A stretch of 64,000 bases of DNA from Phytophthora colocasiae. Lineage: Eukaryota > Oomycota > Peronosporomycetes > Peronosporales > Peronosporaceae. Position 1 is the stretch's first letter. Each line of letters opens with the position of its first letter. Positions 11,540 to 23,937 of the stretch are shown here, piece after piece. The position numbers and the translations under genes are program-made. The stretch is from contig JAGKQI010000061.1 in the NCBI GenBank assembly GCA_018806915.1, positions 558,001 through 622,000 on the forward strand, written 5' to 3'. The notes under the pieces were generated by a model. It saw nothing but the letters and a program-made list of their open reading frames with translations, did not search any database and was not told the DNA's origin.

Positions 11540-13052
11540 ATGCAGAGCCAAGGTGGCAATGCTCAAGGCGGCGAAGGCGACCTGCCCTCGTCGCTGCCCT
11601 CCTACATACCTCCTTCGTCTCAGAGTGTGTCTGCAGGCCTCCCCTTTGGCTACAACCTATTAAACCAGTCTAAGACCGATCCAGACGCAGCTCAGCGCCA
11701 ATGGAAAAGCCCAGGACCGCAGAACCAGTTCATGTTCATGGGCAACAACGCTCGACCCGCAGGTGCAGAGGCCTCCAAAGGCCACGTATCCAACGCAGCA
11801 CAGCCAAGTCCGTCCGAAGGGATGCGCGGCATGTCGTTCCAGGACGGAGGCGCGTCTGCAGGCTTTCAAATGATGGCAGACGGCAAAGCGGGGGCTCCGA
11901 CGGCTGCTGGGATGCCTGTAGCGCTAAAACTGGGGCGCCAGGACGCTTCCTCAGCCTCTCAGATCTCCGCAGCTCAGTTCTCAGCAGGAACAGGCGGTTT
12001 ATCGATGGATACGGCGCTATTGGCGCGTGTTAGTGGCACAGATCCGTCACTTATGGGCACAGAGGAGATCAAACAGATCATGCGAACCCCTGACCTGCTT
12101 TCCATTTATCAGAAGCTACAGGAGGAGGATGACCGGAGACAGAGGAGATTGGAGCGCAACAGAGCGTCGGCTCGTGTGCGACGGGAGAAAAAGAAGGGGA
12201 TGGTGGAGACGTACGAGGGAGAAGTGTCGAAGCTCGAGAGCTCACTGAATATGCTCAAGAACCACGAGTTTGGCACAGGCAATGCAGATGAATTAGCCAC
12301 AGCATTGGGTACAGCACTTAAGTGTGATTGCACCAATTCGATAGCGTCTGACTGTGGTTTTATTGTGCAGAATACAGCTCGGGGGAACACTTGCGGCATG
12401 CGCTGATGTCGAAGGAGGCCAAGATGGAACTGATGGCCAGGATTCTCGGCCAACACTCACGGGACACGGACGCGGTCAGTTTTCAGATGGAAATCTTGTC
12501 TACGTGTTTGTGTGCTGACAGTTTTGTCCTCAGATTCGCCGCGCTAACGCTGAGAACCAAGCTTTGATCGCAGTAGCAACAGACAACTCAGAGCTGTTCC
12601 GGTCTTTAAGAGCGCAACTGGGTCTCACGCCTGAACAGTGCCAACACCTTGCAAGACTGGCGATCCCCGCCAGCGACGAAGCGCGCAAGCTAGACGCTAT
12701 CCGGAAGTGCTTTTCTGCCCTCCGAGCCCACGATTGGCTTTACGTGCCTGGCATTGAGGTAAGTTGCACAGACTGCGGCCTTCACGTTTGTCCTTGTGCT
12801 CATCTACTGTTATACTCTAGACGATCCTGCACCAATCGCGGAATACAATGACTCCGCATCAATTTCAAAAGTTCCTGTCCTGGTCCGTTGAGAACCGGCC
12901 GTCGATCGACAGACTACAGGTACGTGTGCAGCAGAGTCGTGAAGGAAGATGCTCTCGCATGTCTTAACTTTTTGTTCTCTGTGCAGTTTGTTCCGACACC
13001 GTCAGCCCCGCAGTCCGAGAAGGATCTTACATTTATTTTCTCGGAGGACTAA
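11540..13052 (+). CDS. bZIP transcription factor (five exons)
   Basis: Proposed exons are 11540-12308, 12371-12474, 12534-12758, 12821-12919 and 12987-13052. All are in phase and give 420 residues ending at TAA. The N-terminal ~190 residues are Gln/Ser/Gly-rich and probably disordered. The basic region is around residues 198-216 (RLERNRASARVRREKKK), with the invariant N207 and the Arg eight residues later. A short leucine zipper follows. In the core NxxAAxx(S/C)R pattern, the first Ala is Ser and the Ser/Cys is Arg. Residues after the zipper form a conserved-looking helical tail (about 290-420) of unknown function. It should bind DNA as a dimer in the nucleus. The gene is on the + strand, convergent with the TrpG gene. 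Confidence 0.8.
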
Positions 13053-13330
13053 TCCATGTTAATGGTGTTGTCAAGTCAAGTCTCAAGTTTCATTGAAGCA
13101 GGGCGCTGGATGAACGAGCTTTGTGGTAAAATGGTTATTCGCCAGAGAAGCATCCTTGCGCACACATACATGTATAGCAGACGACGTCTTCAGTTGTTCA
13201 GCCCGGCCTTCTGAATACTCGCCCGAGGCTTTGTGTGTAATAGAAGGCGAGAAAGAACAAGCAGGGCAAGAAGTACATGAAATTTGCTCGTGCTCGTACT
13301 GTATTTCACGGAATGACATCTCGCTGAGAT

Positions 13331-13983
13331 TCACATGTCGAGGAAGTTCTGGATGAGCTTGAGGCCATCCTCGGTGAGGATGCTCTCGGGGTGGAACTGC
13401 CAGCCCTCGACCTTGTGCTGCTTGTGCCGCACGCCCATGATCATGTTGGTTCCCTTCACAGTGGCCGTCACCTCGAGCGCATCGGGCAGCGTCTCTGGCA
13501 GCCCCACAAGCGAGTGGTAGCGGATGGCCTTGAACTCAGGCGACATGCCCTTGAACAGGCCCTTGCCATCATTCACCATAACGGATGCTTTGCCGTGCAC
13601 GATCTCTCCAGCGTGGTCCACTTTGCCGCCGAAGACCTCGAACATGCACTGGTGACCCAAGCACACGCCGGCAATGGGGATTTTGCCGGCGAATTCACGA
13701 ATGACGTCGCATGACACACCCGCGTCCTTAGGGTAGCCTGGTCCAGGTGAAATCATGATGCGGTCCGGGTTCATTTGGCGGATCTCGTCCAATGTAATCT
13801 GGTCGTTACGCTTCACCTCCACATGAGCTCCGAGTTGGGCCATGTACTGCAACGTCAACGAGAAGTTAGCGCTATGTGGAGCACACAAGACAAAGAAGAG
13901 GAACACGTTACTGTACGCACCTGGAAGATGTTGTACGTGAACGAGTCGTAGTTGTCGATGAGCAGCACACGCGTGTTCGTCAT
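13331..13983 (-). CDS. trpG: Anthranilate synthase component II / glutamine amidotransferase (two exons)
   Basis: Exon 1 is 13921-13983 and exon 2 is 13331-13846, joined across a 74-nt intron (GTGCGT..TTGCAG) to give 192 residues. This matches the usual length of TrpG/PabA. The N-terminus has LLIDNYDSFTYNI. The oxyanion block SPGPGYPKDAG, the nucleophile in GVCLGHQ (C83) and the His/Glu pair in HPES (H173, E175) are all present. The enzyme hydrolyses glutamine and passes ammonia to a TrpE- or PabB-type synthase. It cannot be told from sequence alone whether it serves tryptophan, folate or both. It is a stand-alone domain here. It is transcribed divergently from the PRPP synthetase gene, with 222 bases between start codons. 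Confidence 0.9.
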
Positions 13984-14166
13984 GTTGGTCAACGTGCGGA
14001 TGTCCGAATGGCTGCGCAATTGCAGCAAAGAGTGTCATATTCTTGTGGAGTGTACGTAAATTGGTGTGTTATACCCCATCTATATGTGCAACACATCATT
14101 TGTGTACAACCACACGAAATAATGTGGCGAGGTCATTGTCGCGTCCAGCCAGCCATCCTTCATGCC

Positions 14167-14182
14167 GGTTCATTTCTCAAGT
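14167..14182 (+). promoter_or_regulatory. Oomycete-type initiator of the PRPP synthetase gene
   Basis: GGTTCATTTCTCAAGT matches the oomycete initiator (CATTYYNCA core) and lies about 25-35 bases before the ATG at 14205. This implies a very short 5' UTR, as is usual in these organisms. Confidence 0.55.
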
Positions 14183-14204
14183 CCCTCCCGACTAGCAGGC
14201 CGCA

Positions 14205-15335
14205 ATGTTCCGCCAACTGGTCGCTCGCCACGGCAAGTTCTCCTCAGCCGCTCTGGCCACAGGCTTCGCGGCTGCGGGCGCCTTCCTTGGTGCGCAGCAG
14301 CAGCAGCAGTCGCCGGCATTGGCGGAGGATTCGTTCCCGCGGGCCGCGCCCGTTGCCAAGCAGCCCAAGATCAACGGGCTCAAGATCTTCAGTGGCAACG
14401 CCAACCACGAGCTCGCGGCCAACGTAGCGAAGCTGGTGGGCGTGCAGCTAGGAAAGATCACTGTGGAGCGCTTCGCGGACGGAGAAGTCAACCTCATGGT
14501 GCACGAGAACGTGCGTGGCAAGGACGTGTACATTGTGCAGCCCACGTGCGTGCCCGTGAACGAGAACCTCATGGAGCTGCTGCTTATGGTTAGCACCATG
14601 CGTCGCTCCTCTGCGCGTCGTATCACCGCTGTCATCCCGTACTATGGCTACGCGCGTCAGGACCGCAAGATGGCGGCTCGTGTGCCCATTTCGGCTGCTG
14701 ACGTCGCCCGTTTGCTGGAAGCGATGGGTGTGGACCGTGTCATTGCTGTGGATCTTCACTGCGGTCAGATCCAGGGCTTCTTCGGTCCTCACGTGCCTGT
14801 GGACAACCTGGACGGCGGCCTTGTGGGTGTGTCGTATTTTGGCAACCACGAGCTTGTGAACCCTGTTGTCGTGTCTCCGGATGCCGGTGGTGTCGCTCGT
14901 GCCAAGAAGTTCCGTGAGTGGCTCGTAGGTAAGTACGGTCTGCCCAACACGGGTCTGGCCATGATCATCAAGCAGCGCATCAAGGCCGGAGAGATCGACC
15001 GCATGGACCTCGTGGGCCAGGTCGAGGGCTCGGACTGTATCATTGTCGATGACATGATCGACACGGCCGGCACTTTGTGCAAGGCCGCGCAGCACTTGGC
15101 CGACCACGGCGCTCGTAACGTGTACGCCTTCGCGTCCCACGGTTTGTTCAACGGTGCTGCCAACGAACGCATCAAGAAGTCGGCACTCAAGGAGGTCGTG
15201 GTCGTCAACACCACGCCGCTGCCCAAGAGCTGTGAGGGCAACGAGAAGATCGTGCAGCTGGACATCGCTCCGCTCCTGGCGCAGGCCATTCAGAACATCC
15301 ACAGCAAGAAATCGGTGTCCCAGCTATTCCACTAG
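14205..15335 (+). CDS. Ribose-phosphate pyrophosphokinase (PRPP synthetase)
   Basis: This intronless gene encodes 376 residues. The enzyme makes PRPP from ribose 5-phosphate and ATP, for nucleotide, histidine and tryptophan synthesis. Visible motifs are RRSSARRITAVIPYYGYARQ with the following RK, the PRPP synthetase signature DLHCGQIQGFF starting at D183, and the PRPP-binding loop DDMIDTAGT starting at D282. The first ~58 residues are an extension with little acidic character, Ala-rich stretches and a poly-Gln run (five CAG/CAA codons near 14298). It could be an organelle-targeting sequence. The gene shares a 222-base divergent promoter region with trpG. Long antisense frames across it are shadows. 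Confidence 0.95.
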   Translation: MFRQLVARHGKFSSAALATGFAAAGAFLGAQQQQQSPALAEDSFPRAAPVAKQPKINGLKIFSGNANHELAANVAKLVGVQLGKITVERFADGEVNLMVHENVRGKDVYIVQPTCVPVNENLMELLLMVSTMRRSSARRITAVIPYYGYARQDRKMAARVPISAADVARLLEAMGVDRVIAVDLHCGQIQGFFGPHVPVDNLDGGLVGVSYFGNHELVNPVVVSPDAGGVARAKKFREWLVGKYGLPNTGLAMIIKQRIKAGEIDRMDLVGQVEGSDCIIVDDMIDTAGTLCKAAQHLADHGARNVYAFASHGLFNGAANERIKKSALKEVVVVNTTPLPKSCEGNEKIVQLDIAPLLAQAIQNIHSKKSVSQLFH

Positions 15336-15956
15336 ACTCAAGAGCGACGAGTAAAGCTCACTGACAGGCAGACAGATGCGCAGACGCTGATACGAGGTGA
15401 AGCATGAGAAGCACGAGGAGGTAATCGTTCGACGGGCTCCATGGCTGAACCCCGTACCATGCACATAGTATGTAATTTCGACAAGGTTTCATGAGCCTTC
15501 CCCCTCCCTAACGCCCTGCTTGTCATGCGAGATCGTCATATTCAAATGCTCAAGTGTATTTATGCAGTTAGGTCCTTGACGAACGTCCTTAACGACCGAC
15601 ATTAGCTACAGGTCAGATGTGTTCAAAACCTGTCTCACTCCTTGCAGTCGAACAGTGTGGCATTCGTCTTGTACATGTAGCGTTCACTTGGATGTGGACT
15701 TGGGCTTGGTTGGCTGTTGAAGTGCGTTTGTCTTCACAAACGTCTCACTAAGTTGCCTCAGCGGTAGAGATAGCGACAAGAAACTGGCCCGAATCTTACT
15801 TGTTGCCTTACCTTTCAGCGTGGACGACGGGTATTAGGCCTGGACGCATGCTGTTCGGACATTGTCCTTCGCACTCATGTTGAAGTGAGTGCCTCGTCTC
15901 AAAAGTCGCTTTTCAGCGTGTTTAGGAATTACAACAGAGATGGGGTGAGCAATCGA
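15336..15956. other. Intergenic region without visible gene
   Basis: This stretch separates the convergent PRPP synthetase and EST1-NYN genes. I see no conserved frame, repeat or RNA gene in it. It is of mixed composition and presumably holds both 3' UTRs. Confidence 0.5.
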
Positions 15957-18793
15957 TTAGAAAGCAGCACCTCCTGCATCGGGAAACCTGGAACCAAGTG
16001 AGTACATGTACAGCAAGTTGGTCGGATAGAAAGATACCAGGTGTACATGGTTGCCTTACCTGAAGTTTGGATTCGGAAGAAACTCGTTTTTCACCCACGA
16101 GTACGAGATTTGGTGGGCTCTCAGCCACGCTCGCATAGCCACTTTGCGCTCTCGTGGACCCACCATATTGACAATGTGGTCACGGAAGAGGTCGTTTGTA
16201 ACGACATAGCCGTCATGCAGGCCAGCGTACTGAATGGAGTACGAGTCATCGTAGTCTTGTGGTGGGGTTGGAACCAACACACCCTTGTGCATCAAACGCT
16301 CCAGCAATGCAACGTCATCAGGGATTTTTGCCGCAGTAAGAATTTCACCCTGCTCTTCGCGTTCGGCACGTTCTTCATCGGACTGCAGCATATAGTCAGG
16401 GATGAAGGCAACCACTCGGTGGCCCAATTCTTGAAAATAGTGAACCGCTAGCTCAATCCCCGCACAGGAAAAGACTTTGCCCTTACCATGCCGCATAGCA
16501 ACATTCGGAGCATCAATTACGATCAAGCGCTGCTGGTCTTTCCCGGCCGTCAGGCTGTCTTGAAAGTCAGTATTCTCGGAACCAATGCACATGATAGTCT
16601 TGAAATCAGTGTCGATTGTCTGTTGAGGCGACAACGGTGATTCTGACTGAGGAGACGACACTGGTGTTGACGAGGCTGAACTAGTTGGAGATCGGCGAGC
16701 GGGTGGTGAACGGAGCAATCCCGCGCTCGAGCTTTTCTGTGGACTCCCGTTGATGTTGTTGTATGCAAGGTCGTAATCCTGGATCCACGAAGGATTGCTT
16801 ACGCTTCCTTTGCCATCGTCTGTAGTATCCACTTCATCTTCATACCCACAAAATTCGCATTCGCCATCCGGGAAAGTGCTCGTGTTGCTGCACAAAATGC
16901 ACAAGCGCCCAGTAACAACAGGATTGATCGCAAGTGGGTCTGCCGAGGTTACTTCCTTCGCGGGCTTCGATGGAGTTTTTGGTTTGCTGCTCTTGGAAGT
17001 GCAATGCACACGTGAACCGCCATCTGATGCGGATGTGACCGGAGCCGGCGGCCCCCCAGCAAAAACAAACTTCTCGCTCGAAGCCATGAATCGCGTCGTA
17101 CGCAGCACCAAGAGCTCTTCCTCTGACAACGGTTGAGACGCACTCTTCTCTACGGCAGACTTTTCCGGAAATCGCGCGAGGAGAACATTCTCATAAGGCA
17201 GAAACCCGCTCAACTCGCGATCTTCTGGCAAACTGGCATCGGATAGATTGTTCTTACCTCTCTGTGCACAGCATAGCCCGCGCTCAATGAATCCATTTGC
17301 AGACAATACTTGGAACAGGTCAACACATTGCCCCTGTAGCGCCTTGGAAAACAGATTCGACTCATGCAGCCACTCTACGTAAATGTTGAGAGCTGGCAAC
17401 AAAGCATTGGCAAAATACTTGGTTCGAGTGGATTCGGCTGAGGAAGATAGCACCGTAGTAAGCTTCATCAGCAAACTTGATGCAGTAGCGTAACCGATCG
17501 TTAACGCCTTCTTTGTCGATTCACTTCCTGTCAGCTTTTCAACATCTGCACCGATCATCTGGCAATCTGGTGCGTTCTTGTTGGTGTGAACCGCGCCACA
17601 AGCGACAACGATGGACAAGCAGACCGTTTGAGTCAGTGTCTTCGACAACACTTCTAGCATAGGCCCATCAATTGGCTTCAATGTGTCCTGTTGATCACAT
17701 GCATCGAGAAGGTGGAGAAGTGCAGTCCTTGTGCGCTCAACAGCACCGTTCCACTCTGCCGCAGTAGTGTTGGTAGACAGAATCATGTGCATACACGCTA
17801 GCACGCGCGCAGAGTACGTCTCCGATTCACTCGACGTTTCCTGCTGGGTTTGAAGTTGCTTCTTTCCGCGATGCAGAATATGGAGCAAATTACCACTAGA
17901 GGCAAAAGAGCTTTCGCACACAAGGCTGCGCGCGTACAGGTACGCCCCCTGAAGCAGTTTCCCCTCCAGCACAGCGAGCAGTCCAAGTTGGTTATACACC
18001 TTACCACTGGACGGAGCCACTTCCAAAGCTTGCTGGTAGTACTTCTTTGCTGAGCTCCAATCGTGTTGTTCATCTTTTGGAACAATGTTTTGCTCGTATC
18101 TCGCCACATCTCCCAGTGCTACAAGCGATTGTTGTAGGGAATGGTTGAGTCCCTCAAGATGGCCCGGCAGTCGATCTGGTCGCCGCAACGAGTTCTGTAA
18201 CTGATCCACCAGTTTTGAGTAAAATGACGAGCAATTCTTCAACACTGACGGTGTTTGAGCCTCGATTTCCCTGTACCAGCTCCTCCACAGCCGCTCATTG
18301 ACGGTCTAAACGCAATTCCACTAATAATTAAATCTTCAAAACTTGTGCGTCTACCTCATCCCAAACGTACCTGCGTTTTAGCAGTCCGCGGATATGCGTT
18401 GATAAGCTCCACACACGTGCATCGTAACGCTGTACGTGCCGTTTCAGCCTCGTCCTGGTTTTCCTTGCAGCTTTTAACCTGTTTTTCGCACGCTTTAAGC
18501 TTTTGCAATAAAACTCGGACATCCTCCACGGGCGGACGAGGTGGGTTTGGTACTGGAGGAGCAGTCACAGGAAGTGGTGGTGGTGTTTTGCGGTTGTTGG
18601 CGTCAGTCTGCTTGGGTCTGTACAGAGTTTTGGGGCTGTTATTATGGCGTGAATTGGGGCTTTTCGTCCGATACACCGCGGATTTTGTCTTCTGGGTAGA
18701 CACCAGCAGCGCTTCGTGGTCTCCTTGACGGTCTAACAGCCGCGTAGGCGCAGCAACGGAGCTCGCAGCGCGCTGCTTAGGGCGATACATCAT
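15957..18793 (-). CDS. EST1/SMG7-like TPR protein fused to Regnase-type NYN ribonuclease (three exons)
   Basis: Proposed exons are 18371-18793, 16060-18305 and 15957-15987, giving 899 residues; a start at 18874 would add 27. Residues 1-140 are basic, with two YRPKQ motifs and a coiled segment. Exon 2 opens with RLWRSWYREIEAQ, the EST1/SMG5-7 start, and continues with TPR-like helices (ALEVAPSSGKVYNQLGLL) and an EST1-like helical domain. A CX2C..CX2C zinc ribbon (CILC..CEFC) is near residue 610. The C-terminus is a NYN/PIN-like nuclease of the Zc3h12a type, with DAPNVAMRHG (D739), YDDSY and TNDLFRD carrying all four catalytic acidic positions. It is probably a cytoplasmic mRNA-decay endonuclease. 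The small last exon is supported by a consensus donor (AG/GTAAGG). Without it the protein stops at 16056. Confidence 0.75.
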
Positions 18794-18905
18794 CCCTTGG
18801 CTGTTTCCTTCTGAGAAACCTTCGACATCAGTAGTATGATTCTGATTGGCTGTAAATGAATTTTCATTCCGCACTGAGTATTGCCCACTCCCCTTTGACC
18901 CCCTA
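18794..18905. promoter_or_regulatory. Bidirectional promoter with CCAAT box and initiator
   Basis: Only 112 bases separate the two divergent start codons. The region has an inverted CCAAT box (CTGATTGGCT, about 18842-18851). It also has an initiator-like TTTTCATTCCGCACTG at 18861-18876 for the rightward SR gene, and a reverse-strand AATTCATTTACAG for the leftward gene. The initiator argues that the SR protein starts at 18906 and not at the upstream ATG 18846. Confidence 0.55.
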
Positions 18906-20459
18906 ATGGATCGACGTCGATCGCGTCGAAGCGGCAGTCGCTCCCCTCGGCGTCGACGTCGCAGTCGCAGCTACAGCCGCAGTCCGAGCTACAGCAAAAG
19001 CCGCAGTCGAAGTCGCAGCGTCTTGGAGCATTCGACGCAGTCCTCAGGCGCCAGAGACCGACGCTACCAGCACCAATACCAGTATAAAAAACACAATGAT
19101 CATCGCGTGTACTTAGAAGAAAAGAGGGAAAGGGTGTTCCGTAGTAGTAGCAGGAGGAGCAGAAGCCGCAGTATCGATAGGAGTCGCGGAGATGAAGTAA
19201 GGTACAGGAACTCAAGCCGAAGACGCAGCCCCAGTCCGCAGTATCAAACTTCCAACGCCCGTCAGCGCAGCCCCAGCCCAAGACGCTCAAGCCCCAGCCC
19301 ACCAACGTACAAGAAACACTATTCTAGACAGCGGAGCCCCAGTCCACGTCGCCCAAGCTCCAGTCCGCCAAGATACAAGAAGAAGAGCTCTTTTGGCTCG
19401 TATCAACGCAGCCGAAGTCCTCGACACAGTAGCCCAAGCCCAAGAAGACGCAGTCCAAGCCCAAGAAGACGGAGTCCAAGCCCTAGACGTCGTAGCCCAA
19501 GTCCGCACCGAAGCACCAGTGCACGTCGCCGTAGTGTCAGCTCATGGCATCGCAGTCCTTCCGATACTAACCGACGCAACTTAACTCCAAAACACTGGCA
19601 TCGTCGCAGCCCTCAGCGCAGCCCAAGCCCACGCCGTTATAGCCCCAGCCCACGTGAGCATAGCTTGAGTCCACGTAGGCGCAGTGTCAGTCCCCAGCGT
19701 CGCAGCACTAGTGTTCACCGCCGTGGTCGAAGCCCGCGTCGTGAGTGGAGAAGCCGCTCACGCTCTGATTCCCGTCGACGCCGAAGTGAAGATGAATCGA
19801 GATCAGGGTCCTCTCGTGATCGCAGCAATAGCCACGGCAGACGGTCAGTGGATCCACCACCCAGGAAGTCGCCAATTTCGTCGGCAGGTACTTTACCAAA
19901 GTCAAAGATTGACGACAACCAGGAAGTGAAGGAAGCTGCTATGGAGGAAAGAAATGTCGATGAGCGTCACACATCAGCCACAGGAAACAGCCATAGGCAC
20001 AGCAACTCTTACGGCTACAACCATCAGCATTTCCACAGTCGTCGTCCCCTCCAGCATGACGCTCGTGCATTATCATCCTCTCCGGCTCCCCAGGGATCGT
20101 CAACGCCAGCGAAATCGGTAGTTGCCTCCGACCATGTGACCATTTCATCTCCACGTGGTGGTATCAGCAGTACTTCGACACCCCCAAAGTCAAGTAGTAA
20201 CGGGAATCACCACACCTTCTCCCCTGTTGTAAACCCAGTTCTGGAGAAGAAACGTGAGGCACACCGCGCTTATCTGAAGAGCAAGAGCGACTACAATTGT
20301 GCTGAACAAAAGTATATATCGATTGAGGCCGAGCTTCGCCTGGCCGAATTCTGGTTAGACGTCATGACGAAGAACCTGGAGGACGTGGGCAAGCGTATCG
20401 AGGTGCACGACTGGAACTTTCAGAAGATTGTTAACGAGGAGGAATCTGATGATGCCTGA
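18906..20459 (+). CDS. SR-rich (RS domain) protein with C-terminal coiled coil
   Basis: This intronless gene encodes 517 residues. About residues 1-320 are dominated by Arg/Ser: runs of RSRSRS, and many SPSPRR and RRRSPSPR repeats that are likely SR-kinase targets. The central part is Ser/His-rich and low complexity. The last ~75 residues form a charged helix (EKKREAHRAYLKSKSDY to KRIEVHDWNFQKIV), probably a dimerisation or protein-binding coil. No RRM is visible, so it is not a classical SR splicing factor. It looks more like an SRRM- or CWC-type splicing cofactor. A nuclear-speckle role is inferred. It is transcribed divergently from the EST1-NYN RNA-decay gene. Confidence 0.7.
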   Translation: MDRRRSRRSGSRSPRRRRRSRSYSRSPSYSKSRSRSRSVLEHSTQSSGARDRRYQHQYQYKKHNDHRVYLEEKRERVFRSSSRRSRSRSIDRSRGDEVRYRNSSRRRSPSPQYQTSNARQRSPSPRRSSPSPPTYKKHYSRQRSPSPRRPSSSPPRYKKKSSFGSYQRSRSPRHSSPSPRRRSPSPRRRSPSPRRRSPSPHRSTSARRRSVSSWHRSPSDTNRRNLTPKHWHRRSPQRSPSPRRYSPSPREHSLSPRRRSVSPQRRSTSVHRRGRSPRREWRSRSRSDSRRRRSEDESRSGSSRDRSNSHGRRSVDPPPRKSPISSAGTLPKSKIDDNQEVKEAAMEERNVDERHTSATGNSHRHSNSYGYNHQHFHSRRPLQHDARALSSSPAPQGSSTPAKSVVASDHVTISSPRGGISSTSTPPKSSSNGNHHTFSPVVNPVLEKKREAHRAYLKSKSDYNCAEQKYISIEAELRLAEFWLDVMTKNLEDVGKRIEVHDWNFQKIVNEEESDDA

Positions 20460-20607
20460 GATAACGTTTAATAATGATAGCTGCTTGTTCGTATACATTA
20501 GGAGGAAACTCTCCTCTGGGAGTGGCTAAATGCAAGGACACGAATCCAAAAGTTCGGGGTTTGCTTCGTCTTGGCCTCCGTGGGTCGTTGCCATCTGCTT
20601 GTATTTT

Positions 20608-22318
20608 CTACCGGTTCTGCAGCACCTCTAGGATGAGATCACGGGAAAGACTCGAGAAGCCGTCAGATTTTGTGACCATGTCAAAGTTCTGCACCATGTA
20701 TGACAAGCAGATCTCGCGCAGGCGGTAGGAATGCAGGTCGTCTGCGGACTGGAACAGTGTGGCTGCGTTTTCAACGTTGATGTTCTTCTGCACGATAATC
20801 TCGCAGAGGCCCTTGAGGCGGTCCAGCGTGTACAAGTCAGCTGCAGCATATAATTCCAACGCCATCTCGGCACCCACATTGATCGAATCCACGTAAATAT
20901 ACTCCAGCAGTGCAAGGAAAACTGGCACTCGGGTATGCATCAGTGGGATCTCCTGCTCATGCGATTCCCGCATTCCAGACGAAAACATGGCGCGGAAGTG
21001 GTCACTGCGAGCGGCTAGAATGGCTCGATGTGAGTGAACGGCGCGACCTTCAATGAGAAAGGTGACATCTGAGAACTCTGAACTATCGATGAGTTGGCGC
21101 ATATCTCCAACGTACGAAGACGTTAGCATGGAGGCACGTAGCATCGCCACGGGATCCACGAGTGCGACTGTGTGCTCGTTGTACGACGCTACACTGATCA
21201 CTCGCTTTCCTTCTAGTACGTCCACCAGCTTCGGCAATGTGACCTTGGTCGTATCATTGTGGCCCAGCTTGCCGTGATCTCCATTTCCCCACGTAAATAC
21301 CTCACCCGTGTCTGTGAGCGCTACAGTATGACTCCAACCACACGTGATCTGTACGATGAGTTTCTCCACAAGGCTTTCAACACGTGTAGGTACAGTTTTG
21401 TTCACCTTGTCGCCATGTCCGAGCTGTCCATGCTCACCTCCACCCCAAGTATATACCTCTCCTGTTTCCGTAACTGCCGCGGTGTGGAAGCCGCCACACG
21501 CGACCTGCTTGACGCGTTTGCCTGCCAACGCTTCAACAAAGCGTGCCACAGGTTGATTCCGTTCTGAATTATGTCCAAGGCGTCCGAATTTGCCTTCTCC
21601 AAACGTGAAGACCTCCCCGAATTCACTCAGAGCTGCTGTATGGAAGCCACAGGCCGAGATTTGGACAATGGACTTGCCTCGCAGTTCCTCCACCGGGCAA
21701 GGCAAGTACTGGTGGCCCTCAGTGTCTCCGTGACCTGAGACGCCGTTTTCTTTGTCTCCCCATGTGTAGACGTCCTTGTTTTCCAATAGAACGACAGTAT
21801 GGCGACTCCCACAGGCCACCTGCCTTACTTGCATGCTCTTGAGTGTTTCCACCAGGAATGGTGTCGAGTGGCCCGTCTCATTACCGTGACCCAGTTTGCC
21901 ATACATGCCGCCACCCCAAGTGTACAGGTCCCCTGAGACTGTGACGGCTGCTGTGTGGTAGCTTCCACACGTGACCTGGCGGATATTCTTGCCTCGTAGC
22001 TCCTCTACTAAGCGCGGAACGAACTTCCAGCCGTTGTCTCCGTGGCCTAAGCGTCCGTCGTCTCCTCTTCCCCATGTGTAGACTTCTCCCTCTTCTGCAC
22101 AAGCCACAGTATAGTTAGTTAGCTAGGTAAGTTATTGTATGGGGATACAGCAACTTTCTTGTCTTACCAGTGAGCACGACAGTGTGGCCGCTGCCGCATG
22201 CGATCTGCACGATGCGGCGCTCAGCCAACGCGTCGATGGGCACAGGGCGGTGCTGGTCGCTGGTGTCCCCGAGCCCCAACTGGCCGTCCTCACCGCGTCC
22301 CCAGCTATAGACGGTCAT
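20608..22318 (-). CDS. RCC1-repeat and BTB domain protein (two exons)
   Basis: Exons are 22168-22318 and 20608-22094, joined over a 73-nt intron in phase, to encode 545 residues. The N-terminal ~370 residues hold seven RCC1 blades, each with a VYTWG or similar and an LGHG motif, forming a beta-propeller. A BTB/POZ domain follows (SEFSDVTFLIEGRAVHSHRA), and then a BACK-like helical tail. The order is that of the RCBTB1/RCBTB2 family, whose members can act as CUL3 substrate adaptors. The propeller would recruit the substrate. Direct evidence for guanine exchange activity is lacking. Confidence 0.9.
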
Positions 22319-22557
22319 GGGTCAAAAGGAAGCGATCGGCTTGGAGACTGATGAGGCGCCGCCGCTTCCTTTCCTCGCACGTTCGCCTGCTTCTTTTATG
22401 TGAAGGCGTTGTGGCACCGAAAAGCACCTTTAAATCAGTATAAATAAATCAGAACTATCCTACAACAGTATATAGTGTAAACGATGTATGCACTACTTAA
22501 CATCAATGTATTGGATCTAGATAATTAGTCAAACTCAGATCTACATAGCGAAAGTAA

Positions 22558-22571
22558 GTCATTTGCAATCT
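22558..22571 (+). promoter_or_regulatory. Initiator-like element before the TPR-glycosyltransferase gene
   Basis: GTCATTTGCAATCT fits the oomycete initiator core and lies about 45-55 bases upstream of the ATG at 22615. Nothing else is visible in the 296 bases between the divergent starts. Confidence 0.45.
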
Positions 22572-22614
22572 GAAGTGCACCACATCACACAAACTGTAAA
22601 ACCGCTTCAACTTC

Positions 22615-23937
22615 ATGGTGGGCACTCGGATCGCGAGTAGCTCCTCCACGGACGCTCGCTGGCACGCGCGACTGGCAGCGCTACTGACGGCTTCAGGCAA
22701 GCACGATAGCGCTGCTTCTCACTACCGACGGGCGCTTTGTGGGCTGGAAGAGGCAGCAGCGGACGATAACCCGGAGGATGAAGTGCATCTTCGAAAGCGA
22801 CGGCTCCAGTGGCAGTTCGAACTCGCAGCGGTGGAGGCCAAGCGTGGTCGTCGCCAAGAGGCCATTGGTCTATATGAAGAGATCCTGGCTGTGACTCCAG
22901 AATGTGTTGAAGCGCAGGTCAATTTAGCTGCACAACTGGCCATTGCGGATGTGAGTAGACTGGAGGAGGCCCTTTCGCTGTGCCTGCGTGCGTTAACATT
23001 GCGTCCAGACCTTGTGGAAGCCCACTACAACCGCAACATGCTGCTAAGGAGGTTAGGACGACAGAGTGAGGCTGTTCACGTCTATTGGGAGTATTTTGCA
23101 AGGGATATTGGTGCGGAGACCCTTCGAGAATCGATGCCTAACGAGCTAGCAAGGGCTGTGCTGTTTGCTGAAGGGGTACCACAGATATACAAGAGAAGCA
23201 GTTCTGTTGGCGCTGAAGATACTCTGAGTAATCAGTCAAGTGAAGAGGGTGGTGTCACAGTAGTGTGTGTCAAATGTGGCGCGAAGTACGGCCCCGAGTA
23301 CGTGAATAAGCTCTACAATTCGGTCATGCGGAACAGCGCAGGCCTCCAGGTGGCATTTGCATGCCTGACAGATAATGCCGAAGGGATCGACCTCCACGAG
23401 AACTTGGATATTCTAGAATTGGATGATGGTTGGAAGGGGTGGTGGAACAAGTGCCAGCTATTTTCCAGTGCGACGACGACAAAACTACGTGAACTTGGCC
23501 ATGACAAATGCTTTTATCTGGATCTTGATACGGTGGTTGTTGGCAGCATGATTGATCTGCTAGCGTGGTCACCCCCAGTTGGTGTACTAGCGCTGCTGAA
23601 GACGGACCAAATGACAAATGAGCAGCGAAAAGGGGGGTTCAACAGCAGTATAGTGGTCTGGCGTATCGGTGGAGAAACAATCTTACTTCAATTTATCTAC
23701 GATTTCCTGCGCATGCATTTTGCTACTGTCAGCAAGTACATCTACAAGTTCGACCACTGGCTGGAGATGGCTCACTTAGACGCGTGCTTTCTTGAGGACG
23801 TTTTTGTCGACCAGATAGTTGAGTATCGTAGCCTCGGTGGGGTATTACCTCCACCAAACGCAGCCATTGTATGCTTTCCACTACTCCCAAAGCCGCATCA
23901 GGCTACTGAACCCTGGGTAACACAGCACTGGGTATAG
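22615..23937 (+). CDS. TPR protein fused to a GT-A-like glycosyltransferase domain
   Basis: This gene encodes 440 residues without an intron. Residues ~15-190 carry TPR-like helix pairs (AASHYRRALCGLEEA, AIGLYEEILAVTPECVEAQVNL, LRPDLVEAHYNRNMLL). After a short linker, residues ~215-440 resemble a nucleotide-sugar transferase. VCVKCGAKYGPEYVNKLY opens the first strand, and a DxD motif, FYLDLDTVVVG, lies at D303-D305. A later acidic site is in the HLDACFLEDVFVDQ segment. There is no signal peptide or membrane helix, so it would act in the cytosol or nucleus. TPR-linked cytosolic glycosyltransferases such as OGT are known, but this catalytic domain is a different fold. The substrate is unknown. 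Confidence 0.65.
   Translation: MVGTRIASSSSTDARWHARLAALLTASGKHDSAASHYRRALCGLEEAAADDNPEDEVHLRKRRLQWQFELAAVEAKRGRRQEAIGLYEEILAVTPECVEAQVNLAAQLAIADVSRLEEALSLCLRALTLRPDLVEAHYNRNMLLRRLGRQSEAVHVYWEYFARDIGAETLRESMPNELARAVLFAEGVPQIYKRSSSVGAEDTLSNQSSEEGGVTVVCVKCGAKYGPEYVNKLYNSVMRNSAGLQVAFACLTDNAEGIDLHENLDILELDDGWKGWWNKCQLFSSATTTKLRELGHDKCFYLDLDTVVVGSMIDLLAWSPPVGVLALLKTDQMTNEQRKGGFNSSIVVWRIGGETILLQFIYDFLRMHFATVSKYIYKFDHWLEMAHLDACFLEDVFVDQIVEYRSLGGVLPPPNAAIVCFPLLPKPHQATEPWVTQHWV

Follow-up and report, generated by a model that had tools for sequence, protein, structure and literature searches.

A Phytophthora colocasiae gene probably encoding an SMG6L-type protein with an EST1 scaffold and a Zc3h12a-type NYN nuclease

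Results

We analyzed a 64,000-nucleotide stretch of the Phytophthora colocasiae genome (contig JAGKQI010000061.1, positions 558,001 to 622,000; here, the window), in which a minus-strand gene with its ATG at position 18793 and its stop codon ending at 15957 encodes 899 residues. With a probability of roughly 0.78, we conclude that this gene codes for SMG6L of Phytophthora, in which a scaffold of the EST1/SMG5-6-7 family carries a C-terminal Zc3h12a-type NYN endonuclease. A previous annotation made from the letters of the window (the sequence-only reading) had suggested a possible role in nonsense-mediated mRNA decay (NMD) or stress-linked mRNA decay, and a role in NMD stands as the best inference for the predicted protein.

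Both Pfam-matched domains of the protein are encoded within exon 2 (Table 1). This exon is an open frame of 749 codons, a length with a chance of ~4 × 10−15 for one given frame at this base composition, and it contains the Pfam matches to both EST1_DNA_bind (85 bits, cut-off 22) and RNase_Zc3h12a (90.8 bits, cut-off 23). The fusion is therefore independent of splicing, and the single protein joining an EST1/SMG5-7 module to a Zc3h12a/Regnase-type NYN nuclease, as the sequence-only reading had it, holds. The NYN domain was found by both profile and fold searches, and its metal site is intact, with D739, N742, YDDSY (826 to 830), and TNDLFRD (844 to 850) all at the positions previously assigned. 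A degenerate nuclease is ruled out by the six metal-site residues, which are kept in 41/41 rows of the NYN tree set. PIN_4 was absent from the Pfam families at E ≤ 1, and Pfam found no zf-CCCH in the protein, which ends 13 residues past the NYN match.

The SMG5/6/7-type N-terminal half was detected by Pfam, profile, and fold searches; PF10374 EST1 reached only 18 bits, under its cut-off of 25. Limits of the EST1 fold were determined on orthologue P0001 (residues 96 to 571) and transferred to window numbering. The EST1 region does not begin at RLWRSWYREIEA (starting at residue 146), as had been thought, since its helices run from about residue 92 (residue 100 in orthologue numbering), in exon 1. 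This half had also been called SMG7-like: its place in the EST1/SMG5-7 family stands, but it is not SMG7-specific (profile scores of 172.7 bits for SMG6/EST1A and 166 for SMG7). The zinc ribbon noted earlier is confirmed at residues 610 to 627, and its pattern recurs in 25/28 rows of the main alignment. These 28 rows were chosen by hand from the 41 proteins of the main protein search, in which scoring was limited to the 7985 candidates with the most shared words; two further homologue searches contributed the best 120 of 195 and the best 120 of 194.

According to a study of human SMG7 (PMC6739308), K66 and R163 are critical for binding S1096-phosphorylated UPF1. The arginine aligned to R163 is kept in all 28 rows of the EST1 tree set (25 fusion and 3 non-fusion), and a basic residue stands at or beside the K66 place in 22/25 fusion rows, with P0172, P0178, and P0181 as the exceptions. 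Genes for UPF1, UPF2, and UPF3 are present in the same genome. The UPF1 protein (1055 residues) carries 24 S/TQ sites versus 9.5 in shuffles; 8 lie within the N-terminal 110 residues (P = 0.006) and another 8 within the C-terminal 70 (P = 0.0002). It looks built for phosphorylation-dependent recruitment, unlike that of Tetrahymena, for which a review reports neither SMG1 nor classical phosphorylation sites in UPF1 (PMC6173133). SMG1 is absent from 12/19 stramenopile genomes in a published survey (PMC5709506).

One further EST1 gene was recovered from the genome (C73:342799-343782; 149.7 bits), in an 860-codon frame in which Pfam found no nuclease; the window gene is therefore the only EST1-family nuclease from this search. 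The features of the second gene fit SMG7, making it an SMG7-like paralogue. A PPGF motif lies close to the end of its frame. PIN_4 gave 0 candidates in the genome; in a check on this search, PIN_4 also went unseen in the examined part of the two best DIS3-like frames, and no conclusion on the absence of an animal-type SMG6 is drawn.

The best protein match is a Phytophthora citrophthora entry, 97% identical and named "putative ribonuclease ZC3H12C," a label on the closest orthologue that the present analysis corrects. Both Pfam domains were found in 11/12 entries named Phytophthora and likewise in other oomycetes. Ciliate-like proteins carry the EST1-NYN fusion as well, as do proteins of ochrophytes (brown algae among them), green algae, one haptophyte, and one rhizarian; the suggestion of an "oomycete solution" is thus too narrow. 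Two of the fusion records come from transcript collections (P0181 and P0184; mmetsp). A ciliate-like set of 13 rows (12 hand-chosen from 120, plus P0038 from the main search) matched the main alignment with an E value of 1.8 × 10−50 across the helical and NYN parts together, and the ciliate-like EST1 half was also recognized by fold and, in P0132, by precomputed Pfam. P0147, filed under an "archaeon" metagenome bin, aligns with this set (63% identity to P0132) and is probably a misbinned eukaryotic contig. The metagenomic EST1-NYN protein P0193 bears a CCCH zinc finger at its N-terminus, an accessory like that of Regnase but placed elsewhere in the protein. In P0040, P0041, P0032, and P0188 (Planoprotostelium and others), the same NYN subfamily is found with EST1 replaced by a doubled stretch with a VPRSRGGF-like motif, in which no Pfam family was found in the three scanned (P0040, P0041, and P0188).

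The fusion had been thought undescribed. An SMG5/6/7-family N-terminus with a C-terminal NYN nuclease is, however, already reported for Tetrahymena thermophila SMG6L in the review (PMC6173133), the only source in the literature searched to use the name "Smg6L." The main text of a Plasmodium NMD paper, in the part available, does not mention NYN (PMC10449492). Judged by titles and the beginnings of abstracts, no paper describing the oomycete protein was found. Tian et al. 2017 is said to be the original paper on Tetrahymena SMG6L.

To place the two halves phylogenetically, we built an NYN tree from 39 rows chosen by hand from 197 proteins plus 2 ZC3H12 rows (P0041 was omitted, its gene model being without the TND stretch) and an EST1 tree from the 25 fusion rows, human SMG6, human SMG7, and the own-genome SMG7-like protein, with no ciliate-like rows. 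A 100/100 branch separated all 39 NYN rows from ZC3H12A/C. Domain order is identical among the fusions, and one residue after a conserved LW is missing in 25/25 fusion rows and present in 3/3 non-fusion rows, the ciliate-like rows lying outside this set. A single origin of the EST1-NYN fusion is favored over separate joining of the halves in several lineages, by which the oomycete and ciliate proteins would be analogues. Such convergence is unlikely, though well short of negligible, given that the deep backbones of both trees are not resolved, that fusion and non-fusion rows split in the EST1 tree with weak support (67/87), that five rows with NYN but no EST1 half, all amoebozoan or amoebozoan-type, group with the two green algae (93/83), and that the ciliate-like profile gave no match to the own-genome SMG7-like protein (hhalign; E = 0.43).

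A second, divergent Zc3h12a-type NYN gene lies elsewhere in the genome (C28:452825-453205; 53.7 bits), with HDD for YDD and with FVGNEFMPNP in a following frame. In a preliminary tree it joined P0018 on an end branch of 6.47; this pairing was taken as long-branch attraction, and the gene was excluded from the final NYN tree.

Regnase-1 works with UPF1, and in Regnase/ZC3H12 proteins a CCCH zinc finger follows the NYN domain. The sequence-only reading had invoked this link, of which only the nuclease type is shared by the Phytophthora protein. Alternatively, with the EST1 fold as a general docking module and no part in NMD, the protein could act like Regnase on particular mRNAs of stress or development, as its Zc3h12a type and the related NYN domains of amoebozoan-type proteins without a Pfam-called EST1 half would allow. 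We consider this improbable: the CCCH finger is absent by Pfam, the NYN domain stands apart from ZC3H12A/C (39 rows versus two ZC3H12 rows) instead of grouping with them, the EST1 half accompanies NYN throughout the aligned relatives, and the ciliate counterpart appears to work with UPF1 in NMD (PMC6173133). Far less probable still is a telomere or telomerase factor, with the function of EST1 and an added nuclease. That two adjacent genes were merged by annotation, or that the gene is a pseudogene, can practically be discounted. P. ramorum P0015 (522 residues) is confined to the EST1 part, though P. ramorum P0009 has both, and against these readings stand the single exon frame, which rules out a two-gene artifact in sequence, the paired domains in Phytophthora and other oomycetes, and the two transcript-collection records.

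Re-derivation of the gene model gave the same coordinates, strand, and residue numbering as before. Both predicted introns are of the GT..AG type and were placed by reading frame, splice sites, and relatives, several of which read FRFP beyond the intron 2 junction.

Table 1. Predicted gene structure, protein features, and neighboring genes, in window positions
Feature	Position	Strand	Description
Exon 1	18371..18793	-	Residues 1-141: ATG, disordered N-terminus, first helices of 14-3-3-like/EST1 fold
Intron 1	18306..18370	-	GTACGT..TTTAG, 65 bases; putative, from frame and splice sites
Exon 2	16060..18305	-	Single open frame for residues 142-889 plus part of 890; holds most of EST1 half, linker, entire Pfam NYN match
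Intron 2	15988..16059	-	GTAAGG..TTCCAG, 72 bases
Exon 3	15957..15987	-	Final residues and stop
EST1/SMG5-6-7 fold (14-3-3-like and helical hairpins)	17049..18532	-	Residues ~88-560; crosses intron 1
Pfam EST1_DNA_bind	17190..18050	-	Residues 227-513
C2C2 zinc ribbon CILCSN..CEFC	16848..16901	-	Residues 610-627
Zc3h12a-type NYN nuclease	16071..16532	-	Residues 733-886; D739, N742, D827, D828, D846, D850
Glutamine amidotransferase	13331-14068	-	
Ribose-phosphate pyrophosphokinase	14196-15335	+	
RCC1-BTB protein	20608-22122	-	

An RS-rich, SR-protein-like gene without a Pfam match lies head to head with the EST1-NYN gene (18846-20459, plus strand); its first ATG (18906) is 112 bases from the EST1-NYN ATG, leaving a gap of 18794-18905. 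The N-terminal extension of the P. aleatoria record P0005 resembles the antisense of this gene (blastp; E = 5 × 10−9), which is probably a gene-model error and suggests that the head-to-head arrangement is conserved. The other three neighbors in Table 1 have no evident connection to RNA decay, and an Rfam scan of positions 12000-23000 around the gene gave 0 matches.

Discussion

The protein is real and conserved, and it seems to belong to a nuclease family known earlier from ciliates. In the mechanism that we propose, its 14-3-3-like surface would dock on UPF1 at a premature stop or terminating ribosome, probably through phosphorylated S/TQ sites of UPF1, and the disordered linker with its zinc ribbon would present the NYN domain. 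By analogy with the PIN domain of animal SMG6, NYN would then carry out a metal-dependent cleavage of the transcript close to the stop, and the separate SMG7-like protein would handle the exonucleolytic branch.

Several points weigh against an SMG6L acting in NMD. No oomycete NMD experiment was found in the literature searched, and direct binding of SMG6L to UPF1 is called unclear in the review (PMC6173133). The K66 equivalent is uncertain by one position (HMMER versus MAFFT) and non-basic in 3/25 fusion rows, and the 13 ciliate-like rows have K or R at the R163 place and GD.KKLK-like motifs, without the RY motif. Human K66E knock-in cells retain robust NMD, as described in the SMG7 study (PMC6739308); therefore, the pocket alone proves little. 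The proposed orthology to Tetrahymena SMG6L rests on architecture and on spirotrich or ciliate-like proxies, and the backbones of the two trees add to this doubt.

Among the closest known systems, Tetrahymena SMG6L shares with the Phytophthora protein an SMG5/6/7-type N-terminus and a C-terminal NYN domain. The two differ in that Phytophthora UPF1 is S/TQ-rich at both ends, whereas no classical sites are given for Tetrahymena; on the Phytophthora side there are also an SMG7-like paralogue without a nuclease and a zinc ribbon between the halves. Animal SMG6 (EST1A) likewise pairs an EST1 fold with a PIN-fold endonuclease at its C-terminus, but the Phytophthora nuclease is of the Zc3h12a/NYN type, with no PIN_4 match. 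In the yeast Upf1-Nmd4-Ebs1 system two separate proteins are found in place of one. Regnase-1/ZC3H12A-C and KHNYN differ from the Phytophthora protein, which is built on an EST1 scaffold without a CCCH finger and is separate in the NYN tree. SMG7, both human and own-genome, shares the 14-3-3-like and helical hairpin fold but is without a nuclease domain.

There is about an even chance that EST1-NYN is an ancestral NMD nuclease, and not a "protozoa-specific" one, of stramenopiles, ciliates, Rhizaria, haptophytes, and green algae (the streptophyte Mesostigma among them), that SMG6 (EST1-PIN) and SMG6L (EST1-NYN) arose by independent joinings to one scaffold, and that oomycetes keep both SMG6L and SMG7. 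To our knowledge, the SMG5/6/7 homologues of land plants are reported to be SMG7 proteins that lack a PIN domain, a description that concerns PIN and not NYN. If the ancestral origin is true, EST1-NYN would be older than land plants, and a PIN-fold nuclease would have been joined to the EST1 scaffold twice independently. With a UPF1 ready for phosphorylation alongside them, oomycete SMG6L and SMG7 would then make the endonucleolytic and exonucleolytic branches genetically separable.

The main interest of the finding lies in the breadth of the SMG6L family and in the phylogenetic question that it raises. It indicates a probable NMD endonuclease for one of the major plant-pathogen groups and finds an enzyme named from a ciliate to be widespread, even in a streptophyte alga. 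It thereby makes it possible to test at what point plants lost an NMD endonuclease, if indeed they did, and whether phosphorylation-dependent recruitment accompanies SMG6L as it does animal SMG6.
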